The position numbers were made by a program, and so were the translations under genes. Source: Antitrichia curtipendula (taxonomy: Eukaryota > Streptophyta > Bryopsida > Hypnales > Leucodontaceae). From it: a stretch of DNA of 64,000 nt. Below the pieces are notes generated by a model, which saw nothing but the letters and a program-made list of their open reading frames with translations, had not been told where the DNA came from and searched no databases. The number at the start of each line of letters is the position of its first letter. The first letter of the stretch is position 1. The stretch spans positions 9,935,001 through 9,999,000 of the forward strand of contig OX579636.1 in the NCBI GenBank assembly GCA_951230915.1, read 5' to 3'. Below are positions 5,775 through 60,048 of this stretch, one piece after another.

Positions 5775-5799
5775 CGTTGCCCTCCACGAGGAGAACCCT

Positions 5800-32338: not shown

Positions 32339-32790
32339 AATCCGTTGGCCCCTGTTTGTTTCTGAGCTTGCAGATTTCTTTATAGTTACTGTATACCTTC
32401 ATTTGCATAGATTGGCACTCTATTTGTAGCTGGCCCAGCTTCTTAATCAATGATGGCAGTAAAGTCGACATATTTCACCACATTGCTTTCGAAGTCAAAA
32501 CTGTCTAGTAATGCGGTCACCTTACAGAAATGCACCTACTTAAGCTTAACTGACCTCCGAATCAGATGTACACCATTGTAAAGTCGGGTCATATTTCTAG
32601 CAAGTTAAATAACTTGATGCTTGCTGAGTACTGGAGTGATCGAGCTTAACTGACCTCAAACTATTAAGCTCACTCACTTCAAACTATCTGAATACGCTAC
32701 TTCGGACGTCATACTTCCAACGCCATAAGCTGACAATTGTTGTTGCCATGGATTGGCCTTATTCTCAGACTGTGCCACTAGCATTTGGAA

Positions 32791-33487
32791 GACTATGTTT
32801 TCACCAAAACCGCTCTAAATTTTTTATTTCTAATACAAGTACCAAATATTATAAAACAAACATTTTTGGAATAATGTAACCATAGGATCTTTTATTAAAC
32901 TAGTTTGAGAGGTTGTATAAAAAATTTCAAAAAATTTCACCGCGTGGATTGCAAGATAATAGCATTTGAGTTGACAAAGATCTTTTTTTGGTCCCCGCGA
33001 AAATCTGGGCAGCTGCACTTCACAAGGTCACATTGGTATGAAAAAATGTCCAAAACGGTGGTTACTCTTTGGATTATTCTTCAAAGCAAGTTGTCTATAT
33101 GCTTGAAAATTTTCGGATCATTAGGAATTGTAAATCATATAGGAGAAATTAGTAAGTAGAAAGAGGTAGAGAATGATTCAAAACACTAAATTATTAAGAA
33201 TTTTAATATGGAATAGAAAAATGCCAATCCCAACCATTTTAATGTTGTAATAAACAATCTTCACACAATATATATATATATATTTTTTTTCAAAAATATT
33301 GAGAATTGATTTAAATAAAGGACTTCAAAGTTTATTTTAGAGTATAAACTCCATAACTACCCTCAAACTAAAACTCCTCATAACTTTCATCTTATTGATC
33401 AAAATTGAATGGTTCAAAGCTTCCCACATATATAGAAATGTAAAGAACCAATTTCAAATTTTTATTTTAAAAAAGAATGATTTTTGA
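32791..33487 (-). mobile_element. piggyBac-like MITE, subfamily A, copy 4, truncated at both ends
   Basis: It begins inside the element (GACTATGTTTTCACCAAAAC), lacking the CCCCTAAAGG terminus, and runs parallel to copy 2 as far as the T/A-rich segment near 33470. There it fuses with the Harbinger transposase sequence. About 230 bp of one end are missing. A (TA)n tract and T-run are inside at 33269-33290. Confidence 0.8.
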
Positions 33488-34250
33488 ATATGTTTGCATG
33501 GCGTCCAGTACATCCATGGAAGCCTTAAAATTGTTTGTGAAAGCAATCCAAGCAGTTTATGAGAGCACATACCTAAGACAACCAACCAAAGAAGATATTG
33601 AAAAACAACTACGAATTAACGAGGCACGAGGTTGGCCTGGTACGTTTGCGTCATTGGATTGCATGCACTACGAGTGGAAGAACTGTCCTATTGCATGGAA
33701 GGGTGCATTTCAAGGTAAAGATGGCAACAACTTTATAATATTGGAAGCAATTGCAGATAAGAGTTTGTGGATATGGCATGCCTATTTTGGATTACCTGGA
33801 TCCAATAATGACCTTAATGTTTTACATTGGAGTCCATTGGTTTCAAACTTTTTGAGGGGAGAATCTCAAGGTATGAGTTTCGAAGTGAATGGTCATCAGT
33901 ATCCACAATATTATCTCCTAATAGATGGAATCTATCCCAAGTGGAATATATTTGTCCACACCATCCACAACCCCTAAGGAGAAAAACAACAACATTTTGC
34001 AAAGATGCAAAAAGCTACCCGCAAAGATGTGGAGCGTTGTTTTGGAGTTCTACAAGCAAGATGGGCTATAGTTCAGAATTCAAGTCGACAATGGGATTTA
34101 GGTACCATAAATGATATTTTAATGGCATGTGTCATCATGCATAATATAATAATTGAAGATGAAAGAGACCAAGACTTAGAGCCACTTAATCCATCTGTTG
34201 ACATGCCACCATTAAGACGTGGATTAATGTTTGAAGATTTTTTACATTGA
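33477..34250 (+). pseudogene. Harbinger transposase (plant transposon protein family), 5'-truncated, nonsense mutation
   Basis: The frame covers the nuclease half of the family, from about FEYVCMASSTSMEALKLF to the end. D61 in SLDCMH, D112 in GSNNDLN and E186 in RKDVERCFGVLQARW match the DDE residues (numbers count from 33477). A TAA at 33975-33977 follows HTIHNP in an otherwise continuous frame; a CAA codon (Gln) is usual at such a place in relatives, so a single C-to-T change explains it. The N-terminal helix-turn-helix part is missing, replaced by the truncated MITE just upstream. The frame ends at TGA 34248-34250. It differs clearly from the ALP1-like gene at 2455-5774, so the window holds two separate Harbinger lineages. 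Confidence 0.9.
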
Positions 34251-34575: not shown

Positions 34576-35521
34576 CCCCTAAACGCCCAAACCGCGTTTT
34601 CACCGCAACATAGCAATTTTGGGCAGATCACTACGAATGGAGGGTTTGTTTTTTTTCTTTGAAGTTTTCACAAAACATTTTTTGGAGGAGTAGCTTTAAG
34701 GCCCAACAATTTTCATAGCTTTTGACCTTGAAATAAAAAAGTTATGGTATGATATGTTGTTTTCATTGCTTAATGGCCAGTCTGGGCAAAAAAGAACTTC
34801 TTGAAAAATCACCGTTTTTTTTAAATTAAAAATTGAAATTGGTTCTCTAGATCTGTATAGACATGGAAAGCTTTTAACCATTCCATTTGGATTAATGAGA
34901 CGAAAGTTATGGGAGTTTTAGTTTGTAGGTAGTTTGTGAATAGTTATGGATTTTTTACTCTGAAATAAACTTTGAAGTCCTTTATTTAACTCAATTTTCA
35001 ATATTTTTGAATTTTTTTGCAAGAAATGGGTGTAGATTGTTTATCACAACATTCCAAGCATTGGGATTGGAATGTTTCAATTCCATAAATAATTTATTAA
35101 CATTTTGGTGTTTTGAATCATTTTATACTTCTTTTTGCTTACTATTTTTTTCCTATATCATCTAAAACTCCAAATGATCTGAAATTCTTCAAGCATGTAG
35201 CCAACTTGACTTGCAGAATGAGTCCAAAGAGTAACCAACATTTTGAATATTTTTTTAATATAAGTATGACCTTCTAAAGTGCAGCTGCCTGTTTTTTTGT
35301 TGGGTCAAAAGAAGGATTTTTGTCATTACAAACACTAATATCTTGCAATCTAAAAGGTAGATAATTCTGAAATTTGTTCTACATCTTTTCAGACCATTTG
35401 ACTACAAAATCCTATGGCTACATGTGTCCAAAAATGATTTATTTCAAAAATTTGGGTCTTGTACTAGAAATGGCAGTTTTAGAGCGTTTTCGGTGAACAA
35501 AAAGTCACATACATTTAGGGA
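34576..35521 (+). mobile_element. piggyBac-like MITE, subfamily A, copy 5, nested in the Harbinger element
   Basis: 946 bp. The left end is CCCCTAAACGCCCAAACCGC after TTAA at 34572-34575. The right end is degraded: ATTTAGGGA followed by TGAA (35522-35525) where TTAA is expected. The interior aligns with the other A copies. The left terminus is intermediate between the MITE ends and the end of the transposase-bearing element at 49988. Confidence 0.85.
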
Positions 35522-36150
35522 TGAACCCTTAAAGGACACTACCACCAAATAATGTTGATCTTCATGACTTCATTATTCAATGTTGAAACAAAGAATGCAC
35601 CTATTGACCCAATATTTGAAGCATTTTGGTGACTAACTTAGTTGCGAGGGGCCGCGTCCTTTTCACATCTCACATCTTATGCACTATAATGTATGACTAC
35701 TTTGAAAATGACCCTCACTTGCTCAAAATGTTTAGGTTTATTACTTGACAATTTTTAAATTATCATAACCTTTGGACTTTTCCAAGTGCATGACTATATT
35801 CATATTCTGTTATTCTAGAATTTCAAAAGCTTCAATACTTCCAAAAATCAAATAATTAAATAATCACATCACTTCAAAACCTTGGTAGCAAATTCATTAA
35901 GTAACTCAGTTACATATTGCATTCTTAATACAAAACATTTGTACAGAAATTTCACCCCCCGCATCTGTTTTTTACCTGTTCGGTGGTCGTTTTGCCAGCC
36001 AGCCTTCAGACGGGTGGGTCTCCTCCCCCAGCCCGGCTTGCAAACTGGATGGCCGGGCATTATGCCAGCCACGACCCGGCCTGCATTTTGCAAGCCGGGT
36101 GGGGATGCTCTAAGAGACGTTATGTACCCCAAACGAGTAATTCACGCGAC

Positions 36151-37050: not shown

Positions 37051-37059
37051 CCAAAATCC

Positions 37060-37526
37060 TAAACTAGACTAGTATAAGAACGCATGGAAAAAATTTCAAA
37101 AACTTTGACAATGTAGATTGCAAGATATTTGCATTTAAAGTAAGGAAAACAAGTTTGTTTTTTCAAGAAGATGCTTAGATTGCCCAAAAAACAAGATTGT
37201 CCATAACTTTCTCATCATTAGTCCAAATAGAATGATTAAATGCTTCAAATGTAGACAAAAATGTAATATTTGAGAAAAAATCTATTAATTATAAAAATTC
37301 AATTTTTTGTGATTTTTTCTAGGCTGTCCCGCAAGCTTCTTTTTGGACTTAGGGTGGCATAACTTTTGCTACCAAGCAACGATTGAAATAAAAATTATAT
37401 TCGCATAAAGCTAATCTAATTTCCTATCTTCAAAAAAAATTTCAAAAAATCATGTCAAAAATTGAAATCATATAAGCCTACCCAAAATCCCAAGAGTCCC
37501 TTGTAGGGTCTTTGGGACTTTAGGGA
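37060..37526 (+). mobile_element. piggyBac-like MITE, subfamily B, 5'-truncated
   Basis: The right end, reverse complemented, reads CCCTAAAGTCCCAAAGA and is followed by TTAA at 37527-37530. The last base before TTAA is A instead of G. The interior (ACTAGACTAGTATAAGAACG, TTGCCCAAAAAACAAGATTG) matches the subfamily B copies at 54196 and 60251. The left terminus is absent. Confidence 0.75.
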
Positions 37527-37530
37527 TTAA

Positions 37531-40500
37531 TATACCTTTCCTTATATTTTGTTCTCAATCTAAGCCGCTAATAATAGTAATAATTTAACAAATTAACAAT
37601 CACTTTCCATATTCAAGGATGAACAAAGATAATACTTGTTGATCATCACAGATTCTTGGAGGCTTGAAAGGAGAAAGTTGAAACTTTGTTTTACCTATGT
37701 TGAGAAGGCTAAATTTAGAGCTCTATTAAATTCTTTTTCCTCAAGGAAAAAATCCTAAATGATTTTTTTACCAAATGATAAAATTTAGAAATCTAGAATA
37801 TGGTGTTTGGAATGAAGACCTTGAATTAGATGTGAAAGATTACAAAATAAAAATGAACAACCACAAATAGAGGCAAACTTTTCACTTTTTACTTCAAGCT
37901 TGAAAAAAAAATTCGAACCCTCTCTTAATGGAAGCCAAATGTAATATCTCTTGAAAAAATGTAGAAAAACAATACTTTCTATGAGACTACAACTGATGAA
38001 GTTAAAAAATTTTGAATTCAAATTTGGACCACAACTCCCAAATTTGCTCAACTATAGGACAAACTATAATGCAATTAACAATTGTAAAACTAGAGTAGGA
38101 ATTTAATTAGAGAAGGTTTTTAATTGAAAAGTTTTCCTTTGGATTGGTGTGAACCATTAAGAGGCCATAAAACGGCAAAATTAAATAGGGCTCTACTAAT
38201 TTCTACACTACTAATGATGTCCTATGGTAGGATTTGGAACTCTTTTTGGAATTCCAGTGACCTTGACAATGGAAATTTTTACATGGATATTAGAGCCTGG
38301 AAAGCATTAGATTTCTATTGGAAATATATTTTTTTATTTATACTCTTTGGCTATTCTTTTGTAGTTCTATCTAAATCTAGAATATTTTTTGAAATATTGA
38401 TTAGCAATTTCAGAAAATGAATTTGGAATCATGGAATGTCAAAAAATTTCAAATTTTAGAATGACACAATAACATGTACCATGATGTTTGATATTGTAAT
38501 ATAAACCTATGGAGAAATTCATGAGCATGTATTGCATTTGATATGAATTGTTTCACTTTTAATCTAGAAATTGAAGATAATTTTAATTTCATTAAGATGG
38601 TGATATTATTATAGATGGCATGAAAACAATTCAGAACAGTTGTTTTAAATCTATAATTGTCCTAGATGGTTTAGAATGCTCGTTCTGAAATCTATACCTG
38701 TCCTAGATGGTGAAAATGGCACACCGTCAAAGTGACACTTGGGATACCGCCATTTTAATGAAATTGCCCATATTACCAAAAATAAATACAAAAAATCACT
38801 TTGATAGCTATTTATAAAACAAAGTTTAAAAAATATATATAGTCTCAACTTTTGAGAGTTAAAAGTCTCTAAACTTTACTTGCCATGGAAGTTGACAATA
38901 GTAAATTCACTATGCTAGACTTTAGAGGTGTATGTTGACCAATAGCCTATATTGAACTCCATATTTGTGAACAAAAGAATCACAAAGATGTAGACCCTAT
39001 AGTTGTAAAAATGATACTATTTACTTTTATATTTTTTCAAATTCAAATTCAAATTCAAATTTTTATGGACTTTGATTCAAAAATAATTAAATCCCAAAAG
39101 GTTCCTATTGATTTCCACTAAATTTTTTGGAACTTCCTCAATTAGAAAGACACAAATTCTTCAATAGATCCAACCCCATATTTGTAAATGAGACCTTTTC
39201 AACTTTCATTTTTTTCCTTTTTAAATTCCAAATTCTTATGGCCTTTGTTTTGAAGATTAATTGAATCTCAAAGGTTTCTATTGGTCCTCAAAAAACTTTT
39301 GCATTCCCTCATTTGAAAAAATAATTTTTTTTGGACTTTGATTTCAATCGTGTGACTTCAAAATTCCATTATATTTGTTGTCATTTTAAAGTTCCAATGT
39401 TTTCATCTTGATTTTGTTCTACCATTTTTGGCATGGCTTCATTCCACCATTTTCTCAATTGTGACTTCAAAAAAACTCCACCATCACAAAGTGGATCCTT
39501 TATTTGTCAATAGAAATCCCCTTTAGATCACTTCAAAAATTGGCTAAACCAATCTAAAGGTTGTGAGTAGAATTTTATAGCAATTTGAACTTTGATTTTT
39601 TAACAATGGAATGCTAATTTTCTAATTTTAGAATCAATGACATAGTAAAACATCTGCACACAATTAGTTCTTCACCATATTATTTACTTGAGGAGAAATT
39701 TTCAAATTTTTTGAGCATCGATTGCATTTGATATGAGTTGTTTTATATTTTCATTAAAAATTTATGGTAAATTTTGATTTTTAACAAAAATTTCCAAAGT
39801 GTTTACAACTTATAGAGACATGTAACCACATTTGTAACCAAATAAATACAAAAATTCACATTTATACGTACTCGTAAATGAAGTTTCAAAAAGTGTTAAT
39901 AGGCTTGTCTTTTGAAGATTATAAGTGAGTAGACTTCATTTGACATAGAGGACTTGGTAGTTATGAATTCTTTTTGGTGAACTTTCAAGGAGTATGTTGG
40001 CCAATAGTCAATGTTTGATCCTATATTTATAAATACACAAACCTCAAACCTTTTCAATGTGGACTTGTGAAATTTCAAATTAGAAATACCTCCTTGAGGT
40101 GGGTCTTACACAATGTACCGAGAAAGATGCAAACATCTGTTTTCTTCCCTTCCTTTCTCTGGAGAAATCGAGAGTCATTGATCTCTCTCAAGAAAAAAAT
40201 TCCCCCCTTCTCTGATGTTATTGATCTTCAAAAAAACATCCACCATTGATTGGAAACAACCTTGGCCACCGAATACATATATCTATATAGACTGCAAATA
40301 TGGATACGGAATACATGATACATATATAAACTTCAGATATGTATATGTAATATAGGATACCATTACGGATATGGAGATGTCCAAATGAAATAACTCATAT
40401 TGAATGGTGGCAACACTACCTACCAAAAATACAATAGGGAGAAGGCTAACTGAGTGGGTGGCAGGTGATCAAGTGGGTGGGTCACTGGGTGACAGTTTGT

Positions 40501-43033
40501 ACCCCTTTTGGAAAAACTAACAACAAATGGGATGTTGCCACATGAACCCCCTTTGAAAATCCACATCATTTTGGTTGGAAATTAGCATTTCTTCACAATG
40601 TACTCAAAAGATGCATTACTATAATTCCAAGACCAAGAAGCTCTAAATTAGAAGAAATTTCTGCCTCCAAATGTAGGAAAATAGTAGGTTCCACATTGTT
40701 GGACCTTGTTGGAGACCAAGGTCTTCTTATTTGATAACTTATGCTCATTTGTCATTGACTTTTTGATTTCAGCCAATTAAAAATTTTCCAAAAAAATTGC
40801 CTCTTACCTTTGAACTAGGTGTAAATAGAGCTTTGTATATTCTACAGTGTTATTTGAATTAAACCATATTCAACAATTTTGAAGAATTATATGAAGCTTC
40901 CCAATAAACTATTTAGGATAAATATAAGAATGTGTCCTCTATTGCATGGTGTGTATCTCAACCACACGTAAAACCAATTTGGATTGTGTGATTCCAAACA
41001 TAAATTCAATTTGTTTGAATTTGTTTAGGAATTGGTAGTAAATTAGCAGTTCTATTGTTTTCTCCCTAAAGATATTTGTTTCACATCCGAGGGCCTGGAA
41101 AATACTACCAACCTATTATGGCACCGGCTAGTTTCATTATGGATAGTTTCCATTAAATTTGAAGAGACTTTAACCCCAAAGTGACATGGGATATTTTTCT
41201 TTTAGAATCAGTTGTACAAGTGTTCAATTTTGAATTTTTCTATGTTCAAATCTATTGCTTTCCAAGTATATTTAATTGTAGAAAGAAAAACTACATTACT
41301 ACATAGATCACCTAATTTTTTTGAATCGTTGATTATCTTATTTAGTCTTTTTTTTTACATGGAAAAATGTTTTAACCTGTAAAGAAAATAGGAGGTTCAA
41401 ATGAGGTTCTTTTCTCTTTGACAACCTAGTATGTCAATAATTCTATGATTTTCTAAAGTAAAGATGTTAGTTTATGTGGCAAGCTAGATTTTGTTAGTAA
41501 CTATGTTATAACTATGATGTACTCGATGTACTTCAGGCAAGTAGGCCAGACACTAGAATACAAAGATCATTTCTTTTAGGAATTTGGCAAAATAAATGCA
41601 ATAGGAACCGTTGAGATTTGAGCAAACAAAAGTGTCATATATGGATCCATACACTTCATGGAAGTTTGTGAAAAAAATTCAAGCAATTGCACATTTGCAC
41701 CGTCCAGATCTTTGGCAAGGTAAGATCAAACAACAGTCAACCATATAACAGTTGCTTCTTCATTTCTCTACCAAACTAAAACTAGATTTGTAAAGTGGCA
41801 TAGAAATCACATTACTTTCTCAAATTTATTGTATTTGGTGTCATTGGATAGGTCTTGCAGAATCTTCCTAAACCTTTTTGTTGCATTTATCCATCCAAGT
41901 TTTGTAAATGACTTCAAATTGGGGTTGAAAAACGTCAAGGACACTTTCTATCCTCAATGACGTTTTGAGCTTAAATACCTATGAAAGAATGTTTGAGAGG
42001 GATTGTTAGAAACATTTGTACTATTTTATGTTACAAATGATTTGATTGTTGCCTATAACTTTTGTGAAGGCTTCAAAAGACACGAGATTCTTTTATATTA
42101 TTTAATGACTATTATACAACTTTTTGCTAATTTTATTAATTTTTAAAAGAATTTATTACCTAAAAACAGTCTCCAATTGTATCACAGTTGTCAATTTGGA
42201 GGTAATACTTTTTTTTATCTCCCAAAATAAATTTCGGCTAAAATTTTAAAAGGGATGGTCATCTAATAGATTAGCAATGATTTTACAAAAGAATTCTACA
42301 AATAATTAATTCTACATTTTATGGAATCCATCCAACTAAGCTTTTTTATGAATGCATTTTGAAACATAATTTTTTTGTAGTTTCTTTAAGTTTTTACAAA
42401 TTGGATTTTTCAAATATATTTTTAACTATTATAATACTATTTTTTATAAATAGAAATATTACAATACCTATTTTATTGAGATTTTTGACTTTTTTTTAGT
42501 TCTCATAATTATAGAATTATTCTATACTTTATCTTTTTTGGATATAATCTTCTTAAATATCTTTATATTAGCTATATTTTATTATTTTTAAGTTATTTTT
42601 ATTTTATTTTAAAATATTCAATAAAAATCACATAAATTGTGAAAGTGCAAAAAAAAGAAGGGGGTTTCTTACAATTGCGTTCTCCCAAAAGATGGGATAG
42701 CTTACTTCTTCCTTGGCTCATACAAATGATGATTTCTTTTCGTGAGCCTATATTCTTGGGTCTTTGACAATGTCTTTAGGACCCCTACCTAATGTCATAT
42801 AATGCTAAGTTATACTCCTATTGAATCTTTGATAAAAATGAGCTTATTATATAATTATTTTTCTTATTGAATCTTTGCATATTTTTGTTTATATCTTTGA
42901 ATTGATATATTAATTACTTTAACCAATCAAATTAGCTAAACTTTAGAGGTCTATACAACGTATTGTTGTATCTTGCTTCACAATCCTTCTTTTAAAGTCC
43001 TTTTTGGCCCCCGCTAAATACATGCCAATGCTT
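37531..43033. other. AT-rich spacer of 5.5 kb, no gene seen
   Basis: No supported gene. Low-complexity TATCCATATAC-type motifs lie at 40260-40370. Reading frames such as 37785-38051 and 38124-38420 are short, AT-rich and without recognisable domains. Confidence 0.45.
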
Positions 43034-44083
43034 TTAACCCCTGAGCACCCGGCCCGTGGAGACTGAATAGGGGCTGCAGACAAGCATTTTCCAGTAAAAA
43101 TGCCACCCGAGGCTGAAAATCGAGATCCACAGAAGTCCACCGTTGAATCAAGGAGTAGAGACTGACACGGAGCTGTAAAAAAAAATTCAAATGTTTTCAC
43201 CGTGCAATGCAAAAGCTTATAACAGTCAACCAGAAGGAGAATTTGATCAATCACGCAAAGTTCGGTGGGGTCATATGCTTCCAGGAATCATTGCATGACA
43301 TAAAATTGCAATCAAGCCATGAATTTCAAGGAGGGTAACTTCTGACACATGAGCTGGGGCCCTACCAAATTTGAGCTTTTTTAGACCATGCCAGGACCCT
43401 CGAAAGTTGCATTGAATGTGAGTGCTGGACATGGGGGAGGAACACGGACCGGGAGTAGTGTACGAGGCTAACTGACACGCTGGCAAGTCCATGCACTGCA
43501 GTGGGTAGGACACTGCCACCTGCGCTCTCCCGTGCCCATCCAACCGCTGATGTCAGCTGAAGACTCTTCCGACCTTGGGAGTGCAGAGGCCCGGTATCAA
43601 AGAAGTAGCAGGGTAACATAATGAGTCCAAAAGCAACGCCTGCCTGAAACGACAGCATCAAATTCATGCCATTCTCAATGTCGCCAAACATAATAAGGTG
43701 CACATTCCAAGTGTGATGGAAAGACAATAGTTGTAACCCTGAATGGCATTCAACCCTAGTCGATTTCCAAAGTCCCGACTTCCCAATACACTGCCTTCAA
43801 TGACCCAGACAATAAATTGAAAGCAAATTACAATTCTGAACACTTCCAGGTACAACAAAAAAAAATGGACAATAGAATTGCCAAACTCTTCATAATCTCC
43901 TACACATGAAATCAAGGACGACAGACATTGAAGACCTCCAAGCTTGTAGCTAAAAAGAAACGTCATTCTCTGGAGCTCATACCCAACCCTCTTCGCTGCC
44001 TTGAATTCACTACATGATCTCACACCCTATGAAGCTCAAAATCACCCTCCGTTTGTAGCCAATCCACCTACTACAAACATATG

Positions 44084-46395
44084 TCAATGACAAGGAGGAC
44101 GAGTGACTCGTAGTGCAAAAAAATTCTGAGTGTGCACTTTCACAAAGCACTTGTCTACACACATGTGTGCACCAGCACATGTTGTGCATCGATATCGGGT
44201 CCTTTGTTTGCAAACTATGCACCTACGCCAAAGGTTAGGGCGGATGCTACTATAGTGCAAGGCCCTTGGGTGGCGAAGGCAATCCACCTTGCATGTCGAT
44301 GGTAGATCCAACCAAGGACCTATCAAGCTCTCATGTGGTAAGAGAGCCTCTTCCGATACACCTTTTCACCGCGACTGAGTCGGTCATGCTTCAATAACAC
44401 CCAAGAATTCTGCAACCAACAATCAACGGTGAAGAAAAAGTGCTTGTGCCACCACTTGTGTGAATGGAATTGCACACTATAATCGGTCCGCATCTGATCC
44501 ACAACATAAACACTACGCATGTGGGTCTGGTACTCCACTTGTTGTGGTGTAGATGCAATGGCCTCTCGAACACCCTGCATCCAACGCATTGAGCGTGCTC
44601 CCTCGGCTACTGGATCTGCAGAGGGGGAAAGAATGTATACCGGCTTCAAGTCATACCAATATGTAGCGGCCATGCGTCGTTCGGCATGCATTCGCCACAT
44701 CAAGGTGCCACGGGGGTGTTCACCTTTCTTGTGTCCCAAAAGCGAGGTTGGTAGTCCAACGCGATTCTCCCTCACAGTGCAGGTCGCCCATATTCCACGC
44801 CGCCACAAATCCTCAAATAACATAGGCGATGAGAAGAAGTTGTCGCACACAATAGTATGCCTAATGCCGTCCATGCTGACGGTGAGTTCACGCACAACTC
44901 GTTTGCCTTTATGTGGTTCTGGCACTCCTAACGCTCCTACATAAGGTAAAAGGTTGTATATGTATCATTACAAAAAATTTCAGCCCTGGAAAAGGCCGCT
45001 AACAGCTCATTTTCGGCACCCCTGTGGTGCAATTACAGAAAAAATAAAAAATTGTTTTTTTATTTTTTTAATATTTTTTTATAAAAAATAATAAGAAAAA
45101 ATAATAAGAAAAAAATAAAAAAATAAGAAAAAAATTAAAAATTAAAAAAAAAATTTTAAAAAATTTTAAAAAATTTTAAAAATTTTAAAAAAATTTTAAA
45201 AATTAAAAAATCTGACAGAACGCTGACGTGGTCGAAATTCGACCACGTCAGCGATTTCAGTTCAGTCCCACATTTCTCTCTACTTGCACCGGGGGGGTGC
45301 AGAACTCACGACCTTTTCCAGGGCTGATATTTTTTGTAATGCATGATGGATTGCAAACAACAGCCCAAAACTTGAAGCCATACTTTGTTGGCTTCAACGG
45401 CATGTATTGTCGAAACCCTGAATAGTGGCCTCAATACGCCACCATAATTTCATCACTAGCAATGAACTCCTTAGGGTTGTACAATGCGCGACTCCTCGTG
45501 ACAAAGTCAGAATAATCCACCTGACTTTTGCAAGTTTATCATACTGTAGTGACGCCCTGTCAATGTCTAAAGTCTCGTTATTCACGAGATGTAGGCATCG
45601 TAGTAAAGACTCAAAGCGATTTCGTGTGAAGATACAAGGAATCAAGGAACACCGGAGATATTCCTGTCGCTTCCAATAGTCGCGTATAGTGGGCATCAAC
45701 TTGATGCCCATGAGAATGGTTACACCTATAAATGCCCGGAGTTCCAAACGACAGGTTGGAACCCAGTGAGGGCCACCATTAGTGTGCTTCGAGCCTCCCG
45801 TACCTTGCTGCGATGCGTACAAATTGGTTTGGGCAACAATCTCTTGTACTACCCGCTCATCACAAAACAAATCGAAAAAGTACAAGGCTGGACGTCTAAT
45901 ACGAGGGACTCTGGCTTTTGGACTTGGATGGGGTCCACGAAATGATTCCCTGTCGCCCAAAAGTGTGGTTTCCGAGCTCTGCCAAAACGTATCTTGATAG
46001 CGAGCCCGGAAATCCAAATCATCAAGATTACCCTCACCCTCATAATAACCGATCTCGTGACGAAGATCGACGTTGCCACCTCCCGATCCCATCTCAAAAT
46101 CAGAGTATTCAATGGATGAGATATCACCTGCAAAGTCCCGCTAGTCACCCCTCCACTCAGAATCTGGCTCTGACGTGTCTTTGGTGGCACTACTTGATAC
46201 TACCGAAGCTCCAGGGCCGCAAGGTCCGCCACAGATGTCCTTTGCTGGCAAGGCAACAAATCCACAAGCTCCTCATCCAATTGTTGGGTTGGGAACTCAG
46301 GGATGTCATCATCATTAGAGTTGTCTGCTGGGCATGCGGAGGGACCTGCCACGTTTGCACCTTGTGTAGGTTCACCACCGTCAGGTACACAACAA
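44084..46395 (-). pseudogene. piggyBac transposase, broken by frameshifts, a stop and an inserted MITE
   Basis: Pieces of one protein appear in order on the minus strand. An acidic N-terminal part lies near 46390-46090 with several frame changes. The segment at 46092-45530 contains FFDLFCDERVVQEIVAQTN and LMGIKLMPTIRDYW, typical of the piggyBac dimerisation/insertion region. The first catalytic Asp lies in IASDEIMVAY, followed by an in-frame TGA at 45433-45431 and YMPLKPTKYGFKFWAV. After a 370-bp insertion the protein resumes as YIYNLLPYVG, then IVCDNFFSSPMLFEDL (second Asp), TCTVRENRVGLP and VVDQMRTDYS...KWWHKHFFF (third Asp). After another frameshift near 44326 comes the C-terminal cysteine-rich domain with C-x2-C-x7-C-x2-C-x5-C-x3-C-x4-H (44221-44132). 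Another frameshift lies near 45525. The family assignment is firm; the gene is dead. Confidence 0.92.
44969..45338. mobile_element. Mutator-like MITE inserted in the piggyBac transposase
   Basis: 370 bp with ends TACAAAAAATTTCAGCCCTG and, reverse complemented, TACAAAAAATATCAGCCCTG; the match extends to about 27 bp. The flanks are ATGTATCAT (44960-44968) and ATGCATGAT (45339-45347), a 9-bp duplication with two mismatches, as made by Mutator-like elements. It interrupts the transposase between CNPS and YIYNLL. The interior has a long A/T-homopolymer stretch (45040-45210) and a perfect GC-containing palindrome CGCTGACGTGGTCGAA plus its complement at about 45221-45253. Confidence 0.85.
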
Positions 46396-46430
46396 TCTAG
46401 AATGTGGACCTTCCTTCATGGCCAAATTTG

Positions 46431-46668
46431 TTAAAATGAGAGAAAATGGTCATTTTGAGACTTCAACAGTTCAACCCTAAAACCGTTTTAGTGATTTTAT
46501 CCTTGAGTCGAAGATAAAATGCGAATGCAACCTTTGGGCAATCAAAGGTTTTTATATATATTAACATATGAAAGTCTCAAATTACCGAATAGTCTCAAAA
46601 TTAAATAGTTATAACGATTTATCTTTGAGTCAAAGATAAAATTGAGACTACACTTTGTCTCATTTTAA
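46431..46668. mobile_element. Possible 238-bp MITE with TTAAAATGAGA ends
   Basis: The left end TTAAAATGAGAGAAAATG and the right end, reverse complemented TTAAAATGAGACAAAGTG, match at 16 of 18 positions. A second inverted motif (TTTGAGACTT, AAGTCTCAAAT) lies inside. Target duplication not clear. It sits immediately upstream of the transposase relic's N-terminal region. Confidence 0.5.
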
Positions 46669-46669
46669 A

Positions 46670-48300
46670 TAATATGGCCTTCTTCCACCAATACTTCCTC
46701 TGAATAGGACAAAGTAAAATTGCACACCTTTCTCTTGCCAACGTTGTTGGGGTTCCCCTACAAATTCTTAGAGCCCTCCCCACTAGACTGGATCATATCC
46801 CAAAACTGGAAGTGAAATAGAAACTGTAGTTGGCAACCCGCTCATGTTGCTATGTAATAAGGGCTACTCGAAGCGGGGCAAGAATTCGCCGGAGTCATTG
46901 CTACCACCTTCCGTTTCCTAGTCGCCATGGTCAAGCCACTCCTGCACGCGCGTGGATGCCGCAAAGGCTGGCGCCAGTCCATGGACCACATTCAGAAGCC
47001 AGTGTCCATCAGCACCACATGCAATGCTACCTCCATTCTTGCAATAACGTTGTGAGAATCATGAATTCAGTCATCGATGGAATATGTTTTGGTGAAGTAA
47101 GAGTCCATAAAGAGGCATCAACCCTACGACTTCTCAACTGCAAGAACTAAGCTTATTCATATGTTGTGCAGCATTGCTTCAGGTCGTGGCTCAACAGTCG
47201 GCTCTTGAAGAGCTTACTAGTAGTAAGCATATTGTGCCAAAATATCCAGTGAATGTTCCATTGTGATCAGACTCGTAAATGACTTTAGAGGCTCATGAAG
47301 TTTAATTTTCCTTAGTGAAATCCTCATGAAGTTATGCTTGCCTTAGTGAAATCCTTGTATCCCATACCGTATGGGAACGGCACTTCATTTTCATTATCTA
47401 ACATGGTCTTTGTGTCATGAAGAACTTAGTAAATTTGTCTAAGGAAATACTATAGATATTGACGATGAGCGTGCGTGATCTAAAACCTGCAGTTACTGCT
47501 GGCAACGGATTCACTTCAGCAGAATCAATTGCCAACAAGAATTGGGAAGCAACGAAGGCCACTTCACTGTACATCATACATCGTAACGTGAATCGGCAAG
47601 TCTAAGCTTGTTTATGATGTCTTTAGCGGCCTATGGTTCCAAAATATTCCACCATACAATTGGGAATTCCAATTGATCCTAGCGCTAAATACATATAACC
47701 TTCATACTTCATGAATACGCAAACAGCAGACTTGCTTCAAATGGACTGAAATAAAACCACGACATTGACAGAAGTGGGAGACACTACGAGTGCCCTCAAG
47801 AAGAAATTCGGGAAGCAATGCAGTGGAATGGAGGTCGAATTTGCATTGACAGTAGAGAATTTGAGTGCAATTTGTAAACGGAGAGAACAACATTGTATTT
47901 GATTTCAAAAGACAGACGGTTACAAAATTGGTGCCGTGAGGTGCACCCTTGTGGATCTACTGGAAGAGGCAGCTTACTCCCATTTCACTCCTACTTTCTC
48001 CAATTCTACAACATAAGACCTAAGCGTTCATGCATTCTTCCAAATCCCCAGCAGTCCGAAATAGCCCTCCCCCCAAACGTCAGGTTGGACCACCGCACAT
48101 GTCGTGTTTGAATCACTAAGTTCTTCAAAGCCTGTTGTACCTACCTGTAATAAACATCCCAAATGCAACATGGCACGAAAATTGAAAGTGAACTGAATGC
48201 ACTCATCGTTCGTCATTGATGCGTCGTTGTTAACGATGGTGTCCTAACGCCAAATTTAGAGAAAATTGCAACCTATCATGCACATCAGGCTGTGTAAAGG
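46670..48300. other. Interior of the piggyBac element, unassigned
   Basis: Moderate GC, short frames on both strands, nothing recognisable. It could be remnants of introns, captured sequence or later insertions. Confidence 0.35.
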
Positions 48301-48303
48301 TGC

Positions 48304-48909
48304 TTGTGGGAGATTGCCTTGCACATTGGCGTTCAGATCTCAAGCAATGCGGTGAACGAATTGCGGGCTCAATGGGCGGTGGGACCCAATTTGGAGGTGG
48401 TTTGCTGCACAGTGGAGGGGAATGTCCTATCCCTTCCGATGAAGTTGTCTCTGCTAGCCCCTCCAACAAAGAAGCCCCGATCTGCTGCGCCTCCCATGCA
48501 AGACCCCGCCCCGCCTGGTTCCGCGCGGATGCCGCTGACAACCGCCCAAGTCCCGACCGTGCGCTTCTCCTCCGTCGAACGCTCTGACCTGCTGCACACG
48601 TCGACCCGGTGGTCGTCCTCGCCCGCGGCCCGAGCCCCTCCCGCTCCCCTCTCCTCCGTTGACATCGAGGACCTGCTGCGGACGTTGACCTCGCAGTCGT
48701 CCTTGACCGCAGTCCAAGCCCGAACCGCTCTCCTCTCCTTCGTCGGAATCAGGAACCCCGCCCCTTCCATGCCCACCTCTGCCTATTCGCCCTCCCCTCC
48801 TTTCACCCCTGGCCTAAACCTCTGCCGCTATCCCTCACCGATTCGAAAATATGATCACGGGGAAGTGTTGAACCCGCCTGCGAGCGCTCTCCCGTGTCGA
48901 AGTCTCTAG
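48304..48909 (+). other. GC-rich block with a long Pro/Ser/Ala-rich frame
   Basis: The frame on the plus strand encodes about 200 residues rich in Pro, Ser and Ala. It contains two similar segments: RFSSVERSDLLHTSTRWSSS and PLSSVDIEDLLRTLTSQSSL, with a third near ALLSFVGIRNP. The internal repeat has a DNA period of about 90 bp. The minus strand is also open for 135 codons, so the coding strand is not certain. Base composition is far more GC-rich than the surroundings. I do not recognise it; it could be captured host sequence. Confidence 0.3.
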
Positions 48910-49397
48910 CACCGGGCTGTGGTCCGCATTGGATAAGGGGTCTTTCGTGTGGTTCTCCCTCCATGCTCTTTAGTTCCAATCGTTCTCCCTCGTGCAGGAT
49001 TGTTGGTTCCTTCTTGTACATCAAAATTCGGCCACCATTTGTTGCGGATGAACTTGTTCACCAAAGGTGCCAATCCGTCAGGATGACCTTCAGGAATCCT
49101 ATCATGCACACCAAGGATCCGAAAGCAATGCCTGCGGAACAAATAACGCCACGAGTTTCCCTTTGGATTTTCAGACCAGTAGTGATTCTCGTTGGGATCA
49201 ACGAGACCCAAGAGGAATTCCTCATCAAAGCATTTCTTGAGCTTGACCACCTGATCATTGCTAGCGTTGTGGCGTGTCTTCCCCAAGCATTCTAACAATA
49301 GTTGCATCTCCAACAATTCTCCATGTGGAACTCTCGGTGATGAACCAGTGGGGGCAACTGCGGCACAACCATCCTTGGGTTCCACAATGTTGTCCAT
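48906..49397 (-). CDS. Unrecognised 163-residue frame inside the piggyBac element
   Basis: The frame opens at ATG 49397 and closes at 48906. The middle part (KLKKCFDEEFLLGLVDPNENHYWSE, NSWRYLFRRHCFRILGVHD, NKFIRNKWWPNFDV) looks protein-like, with a mix of charged and aromatic residues. The last ~40 residues are basic and low in complexity. No known domain recognised. It lies on the same strand as the transposase and could be a second gene of the element or a captured fragment. Confidence 0.35.
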   Translation of the reverse strand: MDNIVEPKDGCAAVAPTGSSPRVPHGELLEMQLLLECLGKTRHNASNDQVVKLKKCFDEEFLLGLVDPNENHYWSENPKGNSWRYLFRRHCFRILGVHDRIPEGHPDGLAPLVNKFIRNKWWPNFDVQEGTNNPARGRTIGTKEHGGRTTRKTPYPMRTTARC

Positions 49398-49992
49398 GTT
49401 TGATTCTCACGAATTCACCTTGCACGTCGTTCCTAAACTGCCAATCGCAGTCTTCGTGAAGTGGAGCAGTCCCTGGAGGTGGAGCAGAATTCCCTTGCTG
49501 GTGTACCTCTCCGCGCCTCCACTCTCAAAAATGGAGCGATTTCCTCCATCGACACAATTAGAAGAATGAAAAAATTGTACAAACAACCCACACCCCGTCC
49601 AGAAGAACTGGACTTGCACTCAAACCCTGAACACACCCTCGTCCCCACACGCTCAGATTGTTGAAGAGTGCCACCTCAGGAGTGAAGTTTGTGGGAACCC
49701 AAACCCTCAGATATGGCTCGAAAATGACCCAATTGTTTGCCACCGGACACCTCCGGTTATTCCGGTCACTTTTTCCACTGAATTCAACCCAAAATGCAGC
49801 TTTTGTGCCGCGATTGGCTGAAACATGTGTTCGACTACTTCATCTCCGGGTTCCCCCACTGAGCTTCACTCATAACCCCACTCCACGACTGCCTGGTACC
49901 ATTTACTGTGCTGTACCAGCCCATCTGCCAAATTTAAATTCATTTTCAATTTTGAACGACAAGATCCCGTCGTTGGGGCGCTCAAGGGTTAA

Positions 49993-52900
49993 GGATTGCA
50001 TCTGTATTCTTTTCTAACTCCATTTCATTTTTTAGAATAACAATTATGTACAACTGCATACAAACTAGTTAGTTCCTTGCCCAAGTTGGAATATTAGTCC
50101 CACTTTTTTAAGTTTGAGACCAAACAAGGCATCTAGGTTCAAGGCACCTCAGCCGTTGCCAAAATGTATGTTGTCTTTAGTTTCTTGCCATTGTATTTCG
50201 TCCACCTCAAGTGCCTGGAAAATGCCTTTAATCCCATCAAGAGCATGCCTTTCAAATTAAGTTAAAAAAAAATATGCCCAATCATACACCATAACTTTTT
50301 ATATACTACACTTTCAATCACCAAAATTTTCAATCAGTAAGAGTAAATTCTAAATTTTTTGTATTCTTGAAAAAATTTCATAAGTAATTTCTGAATTCTC
50401 TCAATGTGCTTTACTCATAACCACTTTGAAAGTTGAAACTGCCATTTATGCACAGAGAGCAATAAAAAAATTAAACTAAATTTATTTCATTCTAAAATGT
50501 AGGGTATTTTTTCTATACATAGATGAATATAAAAATATCTAGAAGAAATTTCAAAAAGAAATCAAGGCCACATTGATTGCAAGACTTTAGCATTTCAAGC
50601 AAAAAGATACAAATATTTGCACCTTGCTATAGTAGGTTGTGAGACTTTGAATATTCTTAATCCTGTATAGAACTATAGTATTTTAATGTCTAAAACTACT
50701 TCAAAATTTCCAATGGAAGGCTAAAATCTTTATGAATAATTTATTCTTTACCAAATTCAACTACATGATCCTTACTTAACTTGTCAAATTCAACCTCTCA
50801 AAAACTTAGAGTGAAAATCTCCACCAATAGAAAGTTCAATGTGCCTAAACTTCAAAAGATATTTTTTTTTCAAGGTGAAGTTTTGTCTTTCAACATTTAA
50901 AGAAACCAACAAATGTCCCATAACTTGTGTGTTTTGGTCAATATATTGGATAATGGTTGGAAAATCCGTAAGAAAAAATTCAACCCAAAAATTTACATAT
51001 TCATCTTATATATTCTTATAAAGTAGAAGGTAATATTAGATCAGAAAAAAACTAAGCTACTAACAAGATTGAGAATTATCAATCCAAATGGTGAGAATGT
51101 TTTGAGAGAAAATATTTATTCTACATTTTATTTCTATAAAAAATATTTATAATTACATTGATTTTTAAAGATTTCCATTTGATTTAATTGCTTACATCAA
51201 GTTTTTTTAATTAGAAAATTACTTTTGAGGTCAAATGTTTATGCATCCTTTGAACTATAGAGTATTTGGAAAGATAGAAATCTATCATGTACTAGTGTAA
51301 AAGAACCAATGCATGAATCAACAAATATTTAAATAAATGAAAAGAAAACAACTTTGTGTACATAAGACATGTTTGAGTTCATCTTATTGTTCCAAATCTG
51401 AATGTTTGCTCTTTAACAAGGTTGTGGTGTCCCTCAAAGTTTCAAATTCAATACCTTAGGAATTAATTGATGAACTAATGATCTGAAACGAATGTTCAAT
51501 TAGGTGCATGAGCACAATGCAAAACCATGCTATCAATGTTTTATAGTTCTTGTGTCCAACTATTATATAAATGATTAACTTCCACAAAAAATGTGCCCCT
51601 CAAAATTATAACAATAATTTACTCAAATCTCAATACTCCAAGCAATATCATTGTTTCTAACCCATTGTGAATTTGTGGTCAAAAAACTTTAAAAATAGTA
51701 GATGGCAATGCTAAATTATTTGAAACGTGGAATTAGAATGTATAAGCCATGTTTATTAAAGAACATGCCTGTTCTTTAACTCACATGAGATAGTGAGGAA
51801 CAGATTCATTTGAATAAAAATAAATTTTTCATTTTTCATATCCCTTCTAACCCTTTAAAAAAAATTTCAATTTTAAAATTTAAAATTTTTCATTACCCCT
51901 CCCCAGCTCCCCCCCCCCTTATAATTTCAGAAATGAACATACTTGACAAACAATATGGGACAAACCTGTATCCAGTATTTGTACCAGTATCTATATCCCG
52001 TATATGTATTCATATTAGTATTTTTATCCAATATTGTACTCATATCCATATCCCATTTTATATTCATTACGTATTCGTATACAATATGATATCCATATCT
52101 AGTATTAATTTTCATATTTGTATCCGTATTCATATTTGGACGGCTCAGATTAAATCTCACAAGATCAATGGCTTGTGATTTTTTGAGAAATCAACGGCGA
52201 TTTTGAAGGTAAGCATTTCAAAATAAACAAAAATCAACGACGCATGATTTTTCTCATTTCGGGGGGGGGGTCACAAATCATCATGCCCTATCTACACAAG
52301 AGATAGTTAGCAACATAATCCAAAATTTTGTACACATTCCACAATTTTACAATTACAAATCCATTTCAAAAAGACTAAATGCAATTTTCCTAATATTTCA
52401 ATATTAGGATGAAATGATTTGAAAAAAATGATTTGAAATATTGAATTTCAAATTAATATAATCATAGGGATTGAGGGTAGAAATTGTAAAATTCATCTCT
52501 AGTCAAGCAATTTTTGCTTCTTTTGAGGTGATAATGTAAAACTATATATAAGCCTAATAGTAGGGTAGTTAGGGAATAATTTTTGTATACGTGGTATGTA
52601 GCCATTGGACAAAAATAATTTCCAATTTCCTACATTGAAACACTCAATCTCCAAATTTATAAGTCCACAAGGAATTCCTTAAAGAACTTGATTGATGTTT
52701 TGTTTTAAAATTGCATCAACTTTTAGTTGTGCACCCAGGCAAGCATTCCACTTGTTGAGAATTTTGCACAGTGGAAATTAAATAGTTTGATGGTATTTAT
52801 GTCAATTCGGATACTTGTGTTGTGATCCTGGAACTTTTGCATGTGACGCCTTCAGTCTGCATATGTTGTTGTCAATTTCACATTCATAGATAGGAAGATT

Positions 52901-54195: not shown

Positions 54196-55121
54196 CCCCT
54201 AAAGTCCCAAGGCCATTTTTCCATCAAAAACCACTCAAAACTGCCATTTCTAGAGCAAAGAGCAAAAAAACAAATTTAATGTTTATTTTGCATATTTAAC
54301 CGTAGGATCTTGTACTAGACTAGTGTAAGAATGTGTGGAAAAAATTTCAGAAATTTTGACCATGTACATTGCAAGATATTTGCATTTAAAGTGAAGGAAT
54401 CTAGTTTTTTTGTACCTTGCTCAACTACATTTTTTGGCTTTGAACCTTTTTAACTTAAAAAATTTTCTTTAATGATTTGAAATTCTAATTTTTTATAATG
54501 AAGAATTGAGTTGAGAATCTAGGAAAAAAAAAATTTAAGAAGAAACACTTAGTTTTCACTCATTAAAAAATTGTTAAGTAGAAGTAGGTTCAAGATTGAA
54601 GGAAAAATTAATTCATTAATAGCTCTAAGATAGAATTGAAATATACTAATCTCAACGGTGAGATTGTTCTAGCAAGAAATCTTGACGTTGTGAAACCTTT
54701 TTTTTTTTTTACATTGTTAAAATTGAGTTAAAAAATGAGTCCTACAAGTTATTTTTTCAAAAAGATGCTCTAACTGCCCGAAATATAGGATTGACCGTAA
54801 CTTTTGCATAACAAATCCAAATGGAATGAATCAAAGCTTCCCATGTAAATAAAAATAAAATCTATATGAAACAAAATTTTAAAATTTTTAATTTAAAGTT
54901 TTTCTGAGGAATTTTTTCTGCCCGCCGAACTAAAATTTGGGGTTTTTGTGCCATAACTTTTGCTCCCAGGCACCGATTGAAATAAAAGTTACATTTTCGG
55001 AAAGCTAATGTAATTCTCTATCTCCACAAAAAATTTCAGAGAATCACAAAAAATATTAAGACCATAGGAACCTGCCCAAAATCCATTTTGTCCCCCGAGG
55101 GGACAGTTGGGACTTTAGGGG
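54196..55121 (+). mobile_element. piggyBac-like MITE, subfamily B, copy 1 (full length)
   Basis: 926 bp with a perfect 15-bp terminal inverted repeat CCCCTAAAGTCCCAA, flanked by TTAA at 54192-54195 and 55122-55125. Just inside the right end lies a palindrome GTCCCCCGAGGGGAC (about 55090-55104). The general plan (short ends, conserved CTGCCCG motifs, sequences such as AGGATCTTGTACTAGACTAG) resembles subfamily A, so the two are related. Confidence 0.92.
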
Positions 55122-55723: not shown

Positions 55724-56304
55724 CCCCTAAAGCCCTGCTTGTCCCCTCGGGGGACAATTTGGGTCCGGGTAGGTTCCTATTGTCTCAATTTGAAGTGAAT
55801 TTTTTTGAGATTTTTTGAGGTTGTGTAGCTTTGCAAGAGCTTTGTGGATATATAATTTTTGTTTCACTCGGATGCCAGATGAAAAAGTTATGGCACAATG
55901 AGCAAGAAATGGAGATTGGCGGGCAGTCCAAAAAAAATTACAAAATGTCAAAATAGTTTTTTTTGAATTTTTCCCCTAAAATATTATGTTTTTACCTATA
56001 CGTGAAGCTTTGATTCATTCTATTTGGACAAGGGATGAGAAAGTTATGGACAATCTTAGTTTTTCGGGCAATTTGAGCATCTTCTTGAAAAAAAACTTCT
56101 TGTTCAACTTTGAATGCTAATATCTTCCAATCCGTACGGTCAAATTTGATGAAATTTTTACTACATGATCTCAGACAAGTTAAATACAAGATCCTACGGT
56201 TAAATTCCCAAAAAATACAAAAAAATTGGTTTCTTTAAGTGAATTCAACAGAAGTGGTAGTTTTGAGTGTTTTTTGGCAGAAAACACCCTCGGGGCTTTA
56301 GGGG
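55724..56304 (-). mobile_element. piggyBac-like MITE, subfamily B, internally shortened copy
   Basis: 581 bp, flanked by TTAA at 55720-55723 and 56305-56308. The ends are CCCCTAAAGCCCTGC and, reverse complemented, CCCCTAAAGCCCCGAG. The subterminal palindrome GTCCCCTCGGGGGAC lies at about 55740-55755, matching the same site in the 54196 copy. Its length points to an internal deletion relative to that copy. Confidence 0.9.
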
Positions 56305-57498: not shown

Positions 57499-57526
57499 CT
57501 GATTAATTAATTAATTAATTAATCAG
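57499..57526. repeat. 28-bp palindrome around a TTAA run
   Basis: CTGATTAATTAATTAA and its reverse complement meet at the end of the minus-strand gene; the stop codon region lies inside it. It could act in transcript end formation, but this is only a possibility. Confidence 0.7.
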
Positions 57527-58424
57527 CAGTCACGTATTCCCGTTTGAGCCTATGCACCACCGCATTATAAATTCTGCCGTGATTTCTGGCATAAAACACC
57601 GCCCCACTGGCTGCCATCCCGTACGCACACACCAGTCGATTCTTCATGCGCTTCCTTGCGAGTGCCCACGACGGCCAGAACACCAGACACAGACACGACA
57701 CACAACACAGCACTCGGACGACTTTCGAATGCGCCGCCTTGGAAAACTGATTGGAAGCCAACGCCACCACTTTGTAGTCTTGCATCGGAAAAGTTATGGT
57801 CACCCTGGATCGATACCCCGCCGAACGCACGATCTCCTCAAGCGACTTCGTGAGCTCCTCGAAGTCCCACTCCACAAATTTGATGAGACGAAACTCCTTG
57901 AATGCGTTCGTGCTGCCGGCGTACTCCTCCAGCGTCTCCCTCACTGTGGGCACGGATGCGTCTCTTCTGGCTGTGCGAGAAGGGTTGGTGAAGATCTGGG
58001 ACCACTGCGGGTTCACGTACCTGGACACGTCCAGTTCGATGGAGAAATCGGTGACGGTGTGGGAGCTGGTGGTGTTTCCGGTCGTGCTGGTTGTCGTGTG
58101 GGTGCCGACAATGCGAACGGCCATGAGGGGAGACTGGAGGTGGGACGTGAGGAAGCGCCAAAGCTCCTCGGGATTGTGGTCGAGGAGGGGGTCGTGGCTG
58201 TAGATCCCCTTGGTCTTGGAAATCTTTTCGGCACGGGAAGTGGGGGCGGCAGAGGGGCGCCTCGGAGGGACGAAAACGCGCGTGTCGGGGATGAGGCTCA
58301 TGTCGTAAAGGGATGCAGTGTCGCTGGAGGAAGGGGGTTCTGGGTCGGCATAGGGTTTTGGGGTGCCTGCAGACGGAACGGGGGTCTGCAACACGGGTCC
58401 TTTCATGGTTGCAGGGGCTTCCAT
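57519..58424 (-). CDS. Unrecognised plant protein, 301 residues, C-terminal hydrophobic segments
   Basis: ATG at 58424 opens a single-exon frame closing with TAA at 57519. The frame is open upstream of this ATG but contains no earlier ATG. Residues 1-70 are Pro/Ser-rich and likely disordered (TPVPSAGTPKPYADPEPPSS, DTRVFVPPRRPSAAP). Residues 74-220 look like a folded domain: YSHDPLLDHNPEELWRFL, a Thr/Ser-rich loop at 108-123, then SIELDVSRYVNPQW and FRLIKFVEWDFEELTKSL. Residues about 236-256 are hydrophobic and Cys-rich, and a weaker hydrophobic stretch is at 264-280, so C-terminal membrane anchoring is likely. GC content and codon use are those of a real gene in this genome. I do not recognise the family. 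A related fragment lies in the Harbinger element at 32030-32338. Confidence 0.8.
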   Translation of the reverse strand: MEAPATMKGPVLQTPVPSAGTPKPYADPEPPSSSDTASLYDMSLIPDTRVFVPPRRPSAAPTSRAEKISKTKGIYSHDPLLDHNPEELWRFLTSHLQSPLMAVRIVGTHTTTSTTGNTTSSHTVTDFSIELDVSRYVNPQWSQIFTNPSRTARRDASVPTVRETLEEYAGSTNAFKEFRLIKFVEWDFEELTKSLEEIVRSAGYRSRVTITFPMQDYKVVALASNQFSKAAHSKVVRVLCCVSCLCLVFWPSWALARKRMKNRLVCAYGMAASGAVFYARNHGRIYNAVVHRLKREYVTAD

Positions 58425-60048
58425 GATGCGCTCAAGGCACAAATTAATCACACTCCTGAGCAACTAACTCAATTCGAGGTGCAAGGATCGATCGGTGTCG
58501 ATGGGGTATGCCCCCGCAATTCTGAGCTGATACGTGAAAGCAATTCAAGCAGCTCACCACTGAGCAAGAGCAGGTGTAGAACACCGCCAAGAATAGTCGA
58601 CTCCTGCGTTTGATCCAACCTGATGAACGACAATTACCAGTTACTAAATACGCACTTGAATTGTGCAAACCACGCCAGTCTCGAAACTTGTTCCTTCAGA
58701 GATTCGGCGTTAGCTAGGAGGGTGTTAAAGGATAGACAGGCACAGACAGGGTTTGAATAGTACTAGCAACAAGAAACGATCACTTAAGTAACGACTTGGA
58801 GATTTCCAAGAGACGGAGAGAGCGCGAGAAAGAGCAGTGATCAATCAGGTCCAGCAGGAGGATTAACTTGGCACGCACGACAAGTAGTCTCCCGTTCCGT
58901 GTGAGCCTTTGAATTGATGGGCTGCGTCGTGACTGAATCTGCAGACACTGATGAGTGTCGGGAACCTCGCTCCTTCTGACACTCTGCCAAACGCGCCTGA
59001 CGATGGGTGGATTTTTTGGTCGTGACGCTTTTGCCGACTGGTGTATGCACGTTTTTGGGTTATTCAACTATGGTAGCAACAAGCGTGACTTGGGGTCCAA
59101 GGCGAAGCAGCGTTTTGTTTTGCACTCTCTGAGCCGTGCTGTGAAGGACTGTTTCAAAAAAAAACTGGAACTCCGAAGAGATATTCGATAGGAGTAAGTA
59201 ATCTTTTCATTACATTGGAGATAATTTTTAATGAAGGGATTGAGGAGAATGTCCATTTGCATTGGTGTTGGTCCCACATGCATAACATTGTTTACCATTG
59301 AAGCAAGGCGGCCCCCCTTATAGTGAACAAAATTGTCTTATATGGTTCCTCATTCAATCCCAATCTTTGAATTAAGCCATAAGTCCCTCACAAATTTCTA
59401 GTGAAGTATAATACATTTTTTTACATGGGGAAGATCATTCCCTAGTTATATAATGTTTTGTGCTTCTTTGATTGCATAATGGCAGTGCCGCTTTTAAACT
59501 TATCTTGAATTTGCAGCTCTAAAATATTTTCCCTGTGATGTTTTATAATGAATAGAATGTTTGTCAAACAATGTTTTGTAGTTGAATTCAAGGCAAATCT
59601 GTTGTGGAAAGCTTTGTAGATTGAACCATCATAGAATCATTGAAGTGATGTAGATTCAAATCTTCAAGCAAATTGATCACGGACTTACAGAATATGAATA
59701 AGTATAAGAAATACAAAAGTTTCAAGTGTTGTCTTGTTTCAACTTACGTTTACACTATATTATGCACTCACCTAATAAGTGAGTGAATTAAAATAATACT
59801 TTCATTATTCACTTATCTATATATTTTTTAAACATGCTAAATTATAATTGATACGGGATTAACAACCATATCCCATATCCTATATCTCGCATATGTATCC
59901 ATATGTTGTATCATGTCAATATTCTATATATCACATTCATGCTATGCTTATCAAATGTTTATGCATTGCACATATTGTACTTGTGTAAAATTTGGTTTTG
60001 ATTTTAGGGGATGAGTGGACAAATCAAGTGTTTTATTTTTTTAATTTT
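58425..60048. other. Upstream region of the 57519-58424 gene and spacer
   Basis: 58425-59180 is GC-richer and probably holds the 5' UTR and promoter of the minus-strand gene. The frames here (for example 58955-59191 on the plus strand) have no recognisable motif. From 59200 on the sequence is AT-rich spacer, with a TATCCATATG-type low-complexity patch at 59850-59930. Confidence 0.4.

Follow-up and report, generated by a model that had tools for sequence, protein, structure and literature searches.

The window analysed here is a 64,000-nucleotide stretch of contig C4 (C4:9935001-9999000) in a host assembly of 400,189,583 bases and 303 contigs. Between positions 43038 and 49988 it carries broken transposase frames, a second open reading frame (ORF1) and two nested inserts, enclosed by inverted ends that begin with CCC and abut TTAA (Table 1). 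The two terminal repeats, CCCCTGAGCACCC and CCCTTGAGCGCCC, agree at 11 of 13 bases. A TTAA/CCC pair spanning the transposase with at least 11 of 13 matching bases arose in none of 200 second-order Markov simulations of the window, with the left end taken within 40000-44084 and the right end within 46928-51000. The DDE_Tnp_1_7 profile (PF13843) matches two minus-strand ORF pieces, and both pieces align with the solved piggyBat and piggyBac transposases (PDB sequence matches). A first-pass annotation of the sequence had described a piggyBac relic at this locus with CCC inverted termini against TTAA, and the profile matches and the termini on both sides bear this out. Very likely the locus is a piggyBac cut-and-paste transposon, old and no longer active, within a moss nuclear genome whose piggyBac population is large and diverse.

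Table 1. Features of the piggyBac copy, in order of position, and the intact MITEs of the window
Feature	Position	Strand	Evidence or remark
TTAA target-site duplication, left	43034..43037	.	Same TTAA breakpoint in relatives
13-bp terminal inverted repeat CCCCTGAGCACCC	43038..43050	+	Element 3′ end in transposase orientation
C-terminal Cys/His-rich motif	44129..44227	-	CxxC...CxxC...C...C....H; the L022 frame closes on almost identical residues
Transposase, second DDE piece	44323..44964	-	PF13843 E 2.2e-23; alignment to piggyBac/piggyBat chains
Nested MITE-like insert, ~0.4 kb (approximate boundaries)	44965..45362	.	Sequence: long inverted ends CAAAAAATWTCAGCCCTGGAAAAGG; absent from relative P0015, which is continuous here
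Transposase, shifted frame, with SDEIMVAY and PLKPTKYG	45363..45487	-	X011 residues 453-533
Transposase, first DDE piece	45394..46140	-	PF13843 E 4.3e-25
Acidic N-terminal part of transposase	46200..46415	-	X011 residues 140-191, 38% identity; EFPTQ.LDEE common to P0015
Second nested insert, ~245 bp (approximate boundaries)	46428..46672	.	Sequence: ATGGCC flanking both sides
Upstream conserved N-terminal domain of ORF2, with stops	46678..47049	-	X011 residues 17-141, 48% identity, E 2e-26
ORF1, second conserved protein or module	48906..49406	-	HYW..NP.GNSWRYLFRR...GVHDRIPEGHP
13-bp terminal inverted repeat CCCTTGAGCGCCC, read inward	49976..49988	-	
TTAA target-site duplication, right	49989..49992	.	
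MITEs with both ends intact (5)	17769-18692; 21827-22750; 27550-28479; 54196-55121; 55724-56304		

Aligned to the 786-codon transposase frame of a complete relative (X011), the window copy spans residues 17-779, split over three frames, from ~47049 down to 44147. The coding region extends farther upstream than the first-pass annotation had placed it, to ~47049, and its N-terminal domain has the pattern LP...LG...WGG...GEPQQRWQE.GV.FYFV.F.GSIGGR. The first DDE piece is 70-72% identical to the relatives P0014 and P0015 across P0001 residues 84-216. The motifs CDNFF (44847-44833), KWWH (44457-44446) and PLKPTKYG (45400-45377), together with the cysteine-rich tail, had all been named from the letters alone; each could be placed in the window, PLKPTKYG in another frame. 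The Cys/His pattern has no other match in the six frames of the window, and PF13842 scores E 0.4 on the C-terminal tail, under its cut-off. The first catalytic Asp lies in SDEIMVAY (45457-45434, shifted frame) and the second in CDNFF; the third position is a Tyr (44517-44491), which by hand count on the alignment falls opposite piggyBac-chain residue 447. The loss of the third Asp is taken as decay of this one copy, in which two Asp remain. Because of its frameshifts, stops, two nested inserts and Tyr at the third catalytic Asp the copy is dead and cannot encode a working transposase.

The finding is larger than the first-pass annotation described. A profile search of the host assembly gave 906 first-look candidates and at least 116 scored transposase matches, all above the cut-off (best E 5.1e-80), on C1-C10 and C218; the fragmented window copy is not among the 116 matches listed. 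By hand count, 72 of the 116 have no internal stop in the match, and the longest open transposase frames reach 1,261 amino acids. The same transposase family was found in 0 of 14 control genomes. The 30 best loci form seven clusters at 60% and 12 at 80% core amino-acid identity, with several core pairs at 98.5-99.7% DNA identity. The patterns of the catalytic D-D-D motif are present in 27, 29 and 29 of these 30 cores, and the misses at the first Asp site (L008, L020 and L027) all fall in a single cluster, L020 reading IDEMM. Among the plus-strand loci compared, L011 is nearest to the window copy (72.6% and 78.7% for the two pieces); it shares one cluster with L022, L025, L026 and L029, and window-like CCCCTGAGCGCCC ends occur in L011, L022 and L026 (one end seen in each of the latter two).

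The delineated relatives are bounded by TTAA and CCC inverted repeats, in most of them identical at 13/13 positions. The DDD transposase that they encode is extended far at its N-terminus and carries a Cys/His motif at its C-terminus. Four of the copies are 5.1-5.7 kb long, and a fifth, enlarged by a nested insert, reaches 7.4 kb. X011 (L031 plus L011, on C1) is a complete 5,681-bp member of the window copy's family with CCCCTGAGCGCCC ends; its last residues diverge from the finger that ends L022, so that a late frame break seems to be present in X011 too. The inverted ends match at 13/13 in X011, X004 and X007, and at 11/13 in Y009, whose left end lacks breakpoint confirmation. L004 and L007 are bounded on both sides by TTAA and CCCCTCAACGCCCC; the former is 7,373 bp long with a 2.1-kb insert and the 8-bp near-duplicate GACMACGC, the latter 5,251 bp without the insert. 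The similarity between L001 and L009 stops at ...AAGGG TTAA, and the flanks differ beyond. L021 and L023 are complete 5,310-bp copies on C1 and C3 with unrelated flanks and 13/13 ends, and they differ by 9 mismatches and no gap across 5,318 aligned positions. Their similarity begins exactly at TTAA CCCCTCAAAGCCC and stops at GGGCTTTGAGGGG TTAA, a pattern that reads as the trace of cut-and-paste movement with TTAA duplication; this element probably moved recently.

The second ORF, a part of the element, is an addition to the earlier account. A tblastn search with ORF1 recovered nine relatives from four clusters (E 4e-42 to 3e-3), and ORF1 lies upstream inside the element in copies from four of the seven clusters, the window's own among them. 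In four of the seven clusters ORF1 is overlapped by the ORF that follows, which is read in the +1 frame; in seven sequences the ORF2 ATG stands in the +1 frame no more than ~5 codons past the ORF1 module. In the Y014/Y005 pair the third-position phase of substitutions shifts from the ORF1 frame to the ORF2 frame. ORF1 is predicted to form a helical domain and gave no significant PDB match.

Nine MITE copies of two subfamilies, ~0.5-0.95 kb long and with CCCCTAAAG ends in TTAA, are also found in the window. The five intact MITEs carry TTAA-CCCC at 10 of 10 ends, and the remaining four copies are truncated or degenerate at one or both ends. The string TTAACCCCTAAA is present 11 times, where simulation gives a mean of 0.005. 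Identities reach only 72-81% in the first subfamily and 65-71% in the second, and the MITEs of the window are therefore old. More copies adjoin the transposase loci L039, L042 and L044.

A moss, though not Ceratodon, is the most likely host: an ORF at 57519-58463 (minus strand) has 12 homologues (best 76% identical), of which the two that bear organism names are Ceratodon purpureus proteins at 49% and 51% identity, and another at 62958-63443 (minus strand) encodes a 6-phosphogluconolactonase-type domain (PF01182, E 4e-41). Plant genes had been claimed on both sides of the element; the claim is supported on the right, where these two ORFs lie, and on the left no host gene was identified. Contamination or misassembly, with an element from an animal or fungus ending up in a plant contig, would fit the GC content of the element (0.46, against 0.30-0.35 in the flanks) and its CpG ratio (0.74, against 0.42 and 0.37), and piggyBac is typical of, and best known from, animals. 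This reading is nevertheless highly improbable and strongly disfavoured, since the relatives are spread across C1-C10, eight of which are 25-56 Mb each, and C218, the window copy has inserts nested inside it and, to its left and right, copies of one TTAA MITE subfamily, and MITE copies stand beside other piggyBac loci; the spread of relatives and the shared MITE subfamily thus uphold the earlier judgement that contamination is unlikely. A domesticated piggyBac-derived gene in place of a transposon could explain why coding homology is still recognisable across residues 17-779 of the relative's 786, but the odds of such a gene are next to negligible given the broken frames, lost catalytic Asp and nested inserts of this copy, its element ends and target-site duplication, and its many relatives, one pair of them apparently mobile. 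The locus holds an inactivated transposon copy, and the nuclear genome around it is most likely that of a land plant.

Two further alternatives concern parts of this picture. ORF1 might be a captured host gene fragment or a chance ORF outside the transposon machinery: no Pfam domain above the cut-off was found in it, it was not found in some piggyBac families of the host assembly, and the single-sequence fold of the window ORF1 is poor (pLDDT 44). We consider this quite unlikely, because elements of four clusters have ORF1 in the same position and, outside the window's own cluster, the transposases of these elements have ~40-55% of residues in common with that of the window copy, substitutions favour the third position of the ORF1 frame in both pairs analysed, and the prediction from nine sequences gives a confident helical fold for residues ~22-125. 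The CCCCTAAAG/TTAA MITEs, for their part, could belong to Kolobok, another TTAA superfamily, rather than to piggyBac, as there is no autonomous element with CCCCTAAAGKYCC ends among the delineated elements of the loci fetched. Against this, Kolobok termini are given as 5′-RR...YY-3′ in the available passages of PMC9587614, and the MITE ends begin with CCCC, as piggyBac elements here do; the window element, the MITEs and L021/L023 all start with CCC and depart from the Kolobok rule. A Kolobok origin of the MITEs is thus unlikely.

In the mechanism that we propose for the piggyBac elements, ORF2 would excise the element and insert it at TTAA as the transposase of animal piggyBac does. Excision in this superfamily is seamless and proceeds through a hairpin intermediate. 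ORF1 may be a helical protein with an accessory role, or else an N-terminal portion that splicing or frameshifting joins to the transposase, and could help in end recognition or regulation. Some of the families were probably mobile recently. As a broader and tentative reading, plausible but short of probable, mosses may have a piggyBac branch of their own, made up of transposons that encode two proteins: a helical accessory protein upstream and, from an overlapping +1 frame, a transposase with a long tail. This branch would have radiated into many families, would still be mobile, and would be the source of thousands of TTAA MITEs and a major force shaping some moss genomes.

PiggyBac is a standard tool of animal genetics. 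A land-plant genome in which many families keep open frames and two copies are 99.8% identical would offer a natural host for studying the tolerance and silencing of a TTAA transposon by plants. ORF1 is a new component and raises the question of whether plant-borne piggyBac needs a helper, as two-protein transposons elsewhere may. The vertical or transferred origin of moss piggyBac also becomes testable, given the many families available for a tree.

The superfamily itself is known, and its presence in plants has been asserted: available passages of PMC8086355 and PMC10813416 speak of piggyBac-like elements in plants, PMC4438587 tables piggyBac for all groups studied, land plants included, and PMC10004981 lists PiggyBac among angiosperm MITE superfamilies. 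Repeat tables give piggyBac counts of 1,230 in the fern Ceratopteris (PMC6890710), 2,296 in the grass Festuca (PMC12625059), 60 in Stellaria (PMC13180808) and 1 in the grass Stipa (PMC8319324), as far as the accessible parts of these papers go. The first-pass remark that land-plant examples are seldom described is therefore fair for mosses and does not hold for plants at large. In the portions of text available, piggyBac is not named in a Physcomitrium transposon paper (PMC7466625) or in the Pohlia genome paper (PMC9247546), and no description of moss piggyBac was found in the open-licence literature. Within that literature, as far as searched, the moss elements, the evidence for recent movement and the second ORF are not in print.

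In the accessible parts of plant papers piggyBac appears as a name or a count; unlike those repeat-table entries, which give a superfamily label and numbers, the present elements come as complete units with ends, ORFs and near-identical copies. They resemble the piggyBac superfamily (Trichoplusia ni piggyBac, 6x67; piggyBat, 9c0f) in the PF13843 core, the DDD residues of the relatives, the TTAA duplication, the ~13-bp CCC inverted ends and, in residue spacing, the C-terminal Cys/His motif, and differ from 6x67 and 9c0f in their long N-terminal extension, the upstream second ORF of several clusters and the plant host. Two-protein TTAA transposons are described, in the passages available of PMC9587614, for Kolobok Kol0 and for a few piggyBac families with a KolX-like protein. 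The moss elements are like these Kol0/KolX-type transposons in their TTAA target and in the second protein that some of them carry, and unlike Kolobok, as characterised there, in having termini that begin with CCC rather than RR. ORF1 has an NHYWP/WRYLFRR motif and a predicted helical fold, in which it may differ from KolX.

Two MITE subfamilies, short non-autonomous elements with TTAA/CCCCTAAAG ends, are represented in the window by nine copies that together make up ~11% of its length; boundaries of the four damaged copies are only approximate.

MITE copies in the window
Position	State
17769-18692	both ends intact
21827-22750	both ends intact
27550-28479	both ends intact
32771-33486	damaged, bounds approximate
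34576-35526	damaged, bounds approximate
37051-37527	damaged, bounds approximate
54196-55121	both ends intact
55724-56304	both ends intact
60251-60821	damaged, bounds approximate

A truncated MITE copy lies next to a transposase ORF (33471-33977) that matches Plant_tran (PF04827, E 9e-53). A minus-strand relic of Harbinger type (2815-5804) matches DDE_Tnp_4 within 2815-3393 (E 1.6e-15) and, weakly, HTH profiles within 5067-5804. Two minus-strand ORFs (30170-30979 and 29651-30169) contain hydrophobic stretches, and a Pfam search of both returned no family above the cut-off. A near-perfect inverted repeat occupies 8808-9093, with 130-bp arms (97% complementary) and a spacer of 26 bases. The insert nested in the piggyBac relic (44965-45362) contains a near-palindrome of 33 bp and possibly has a TA duplication.

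Among piggyBac loci elsewhere in the assembly, L004 (with L032) carries an internal insert of 2.1 kb, flanked by GACMACGC, that is absent from L007, its 98% identical sister. In L008, L020 and L027, the transposase is followed downstream by a MITE-like end; L020 and L027 share 98.5% identity across >6.6 kb, in compared sequence that does not extend to the element ends.
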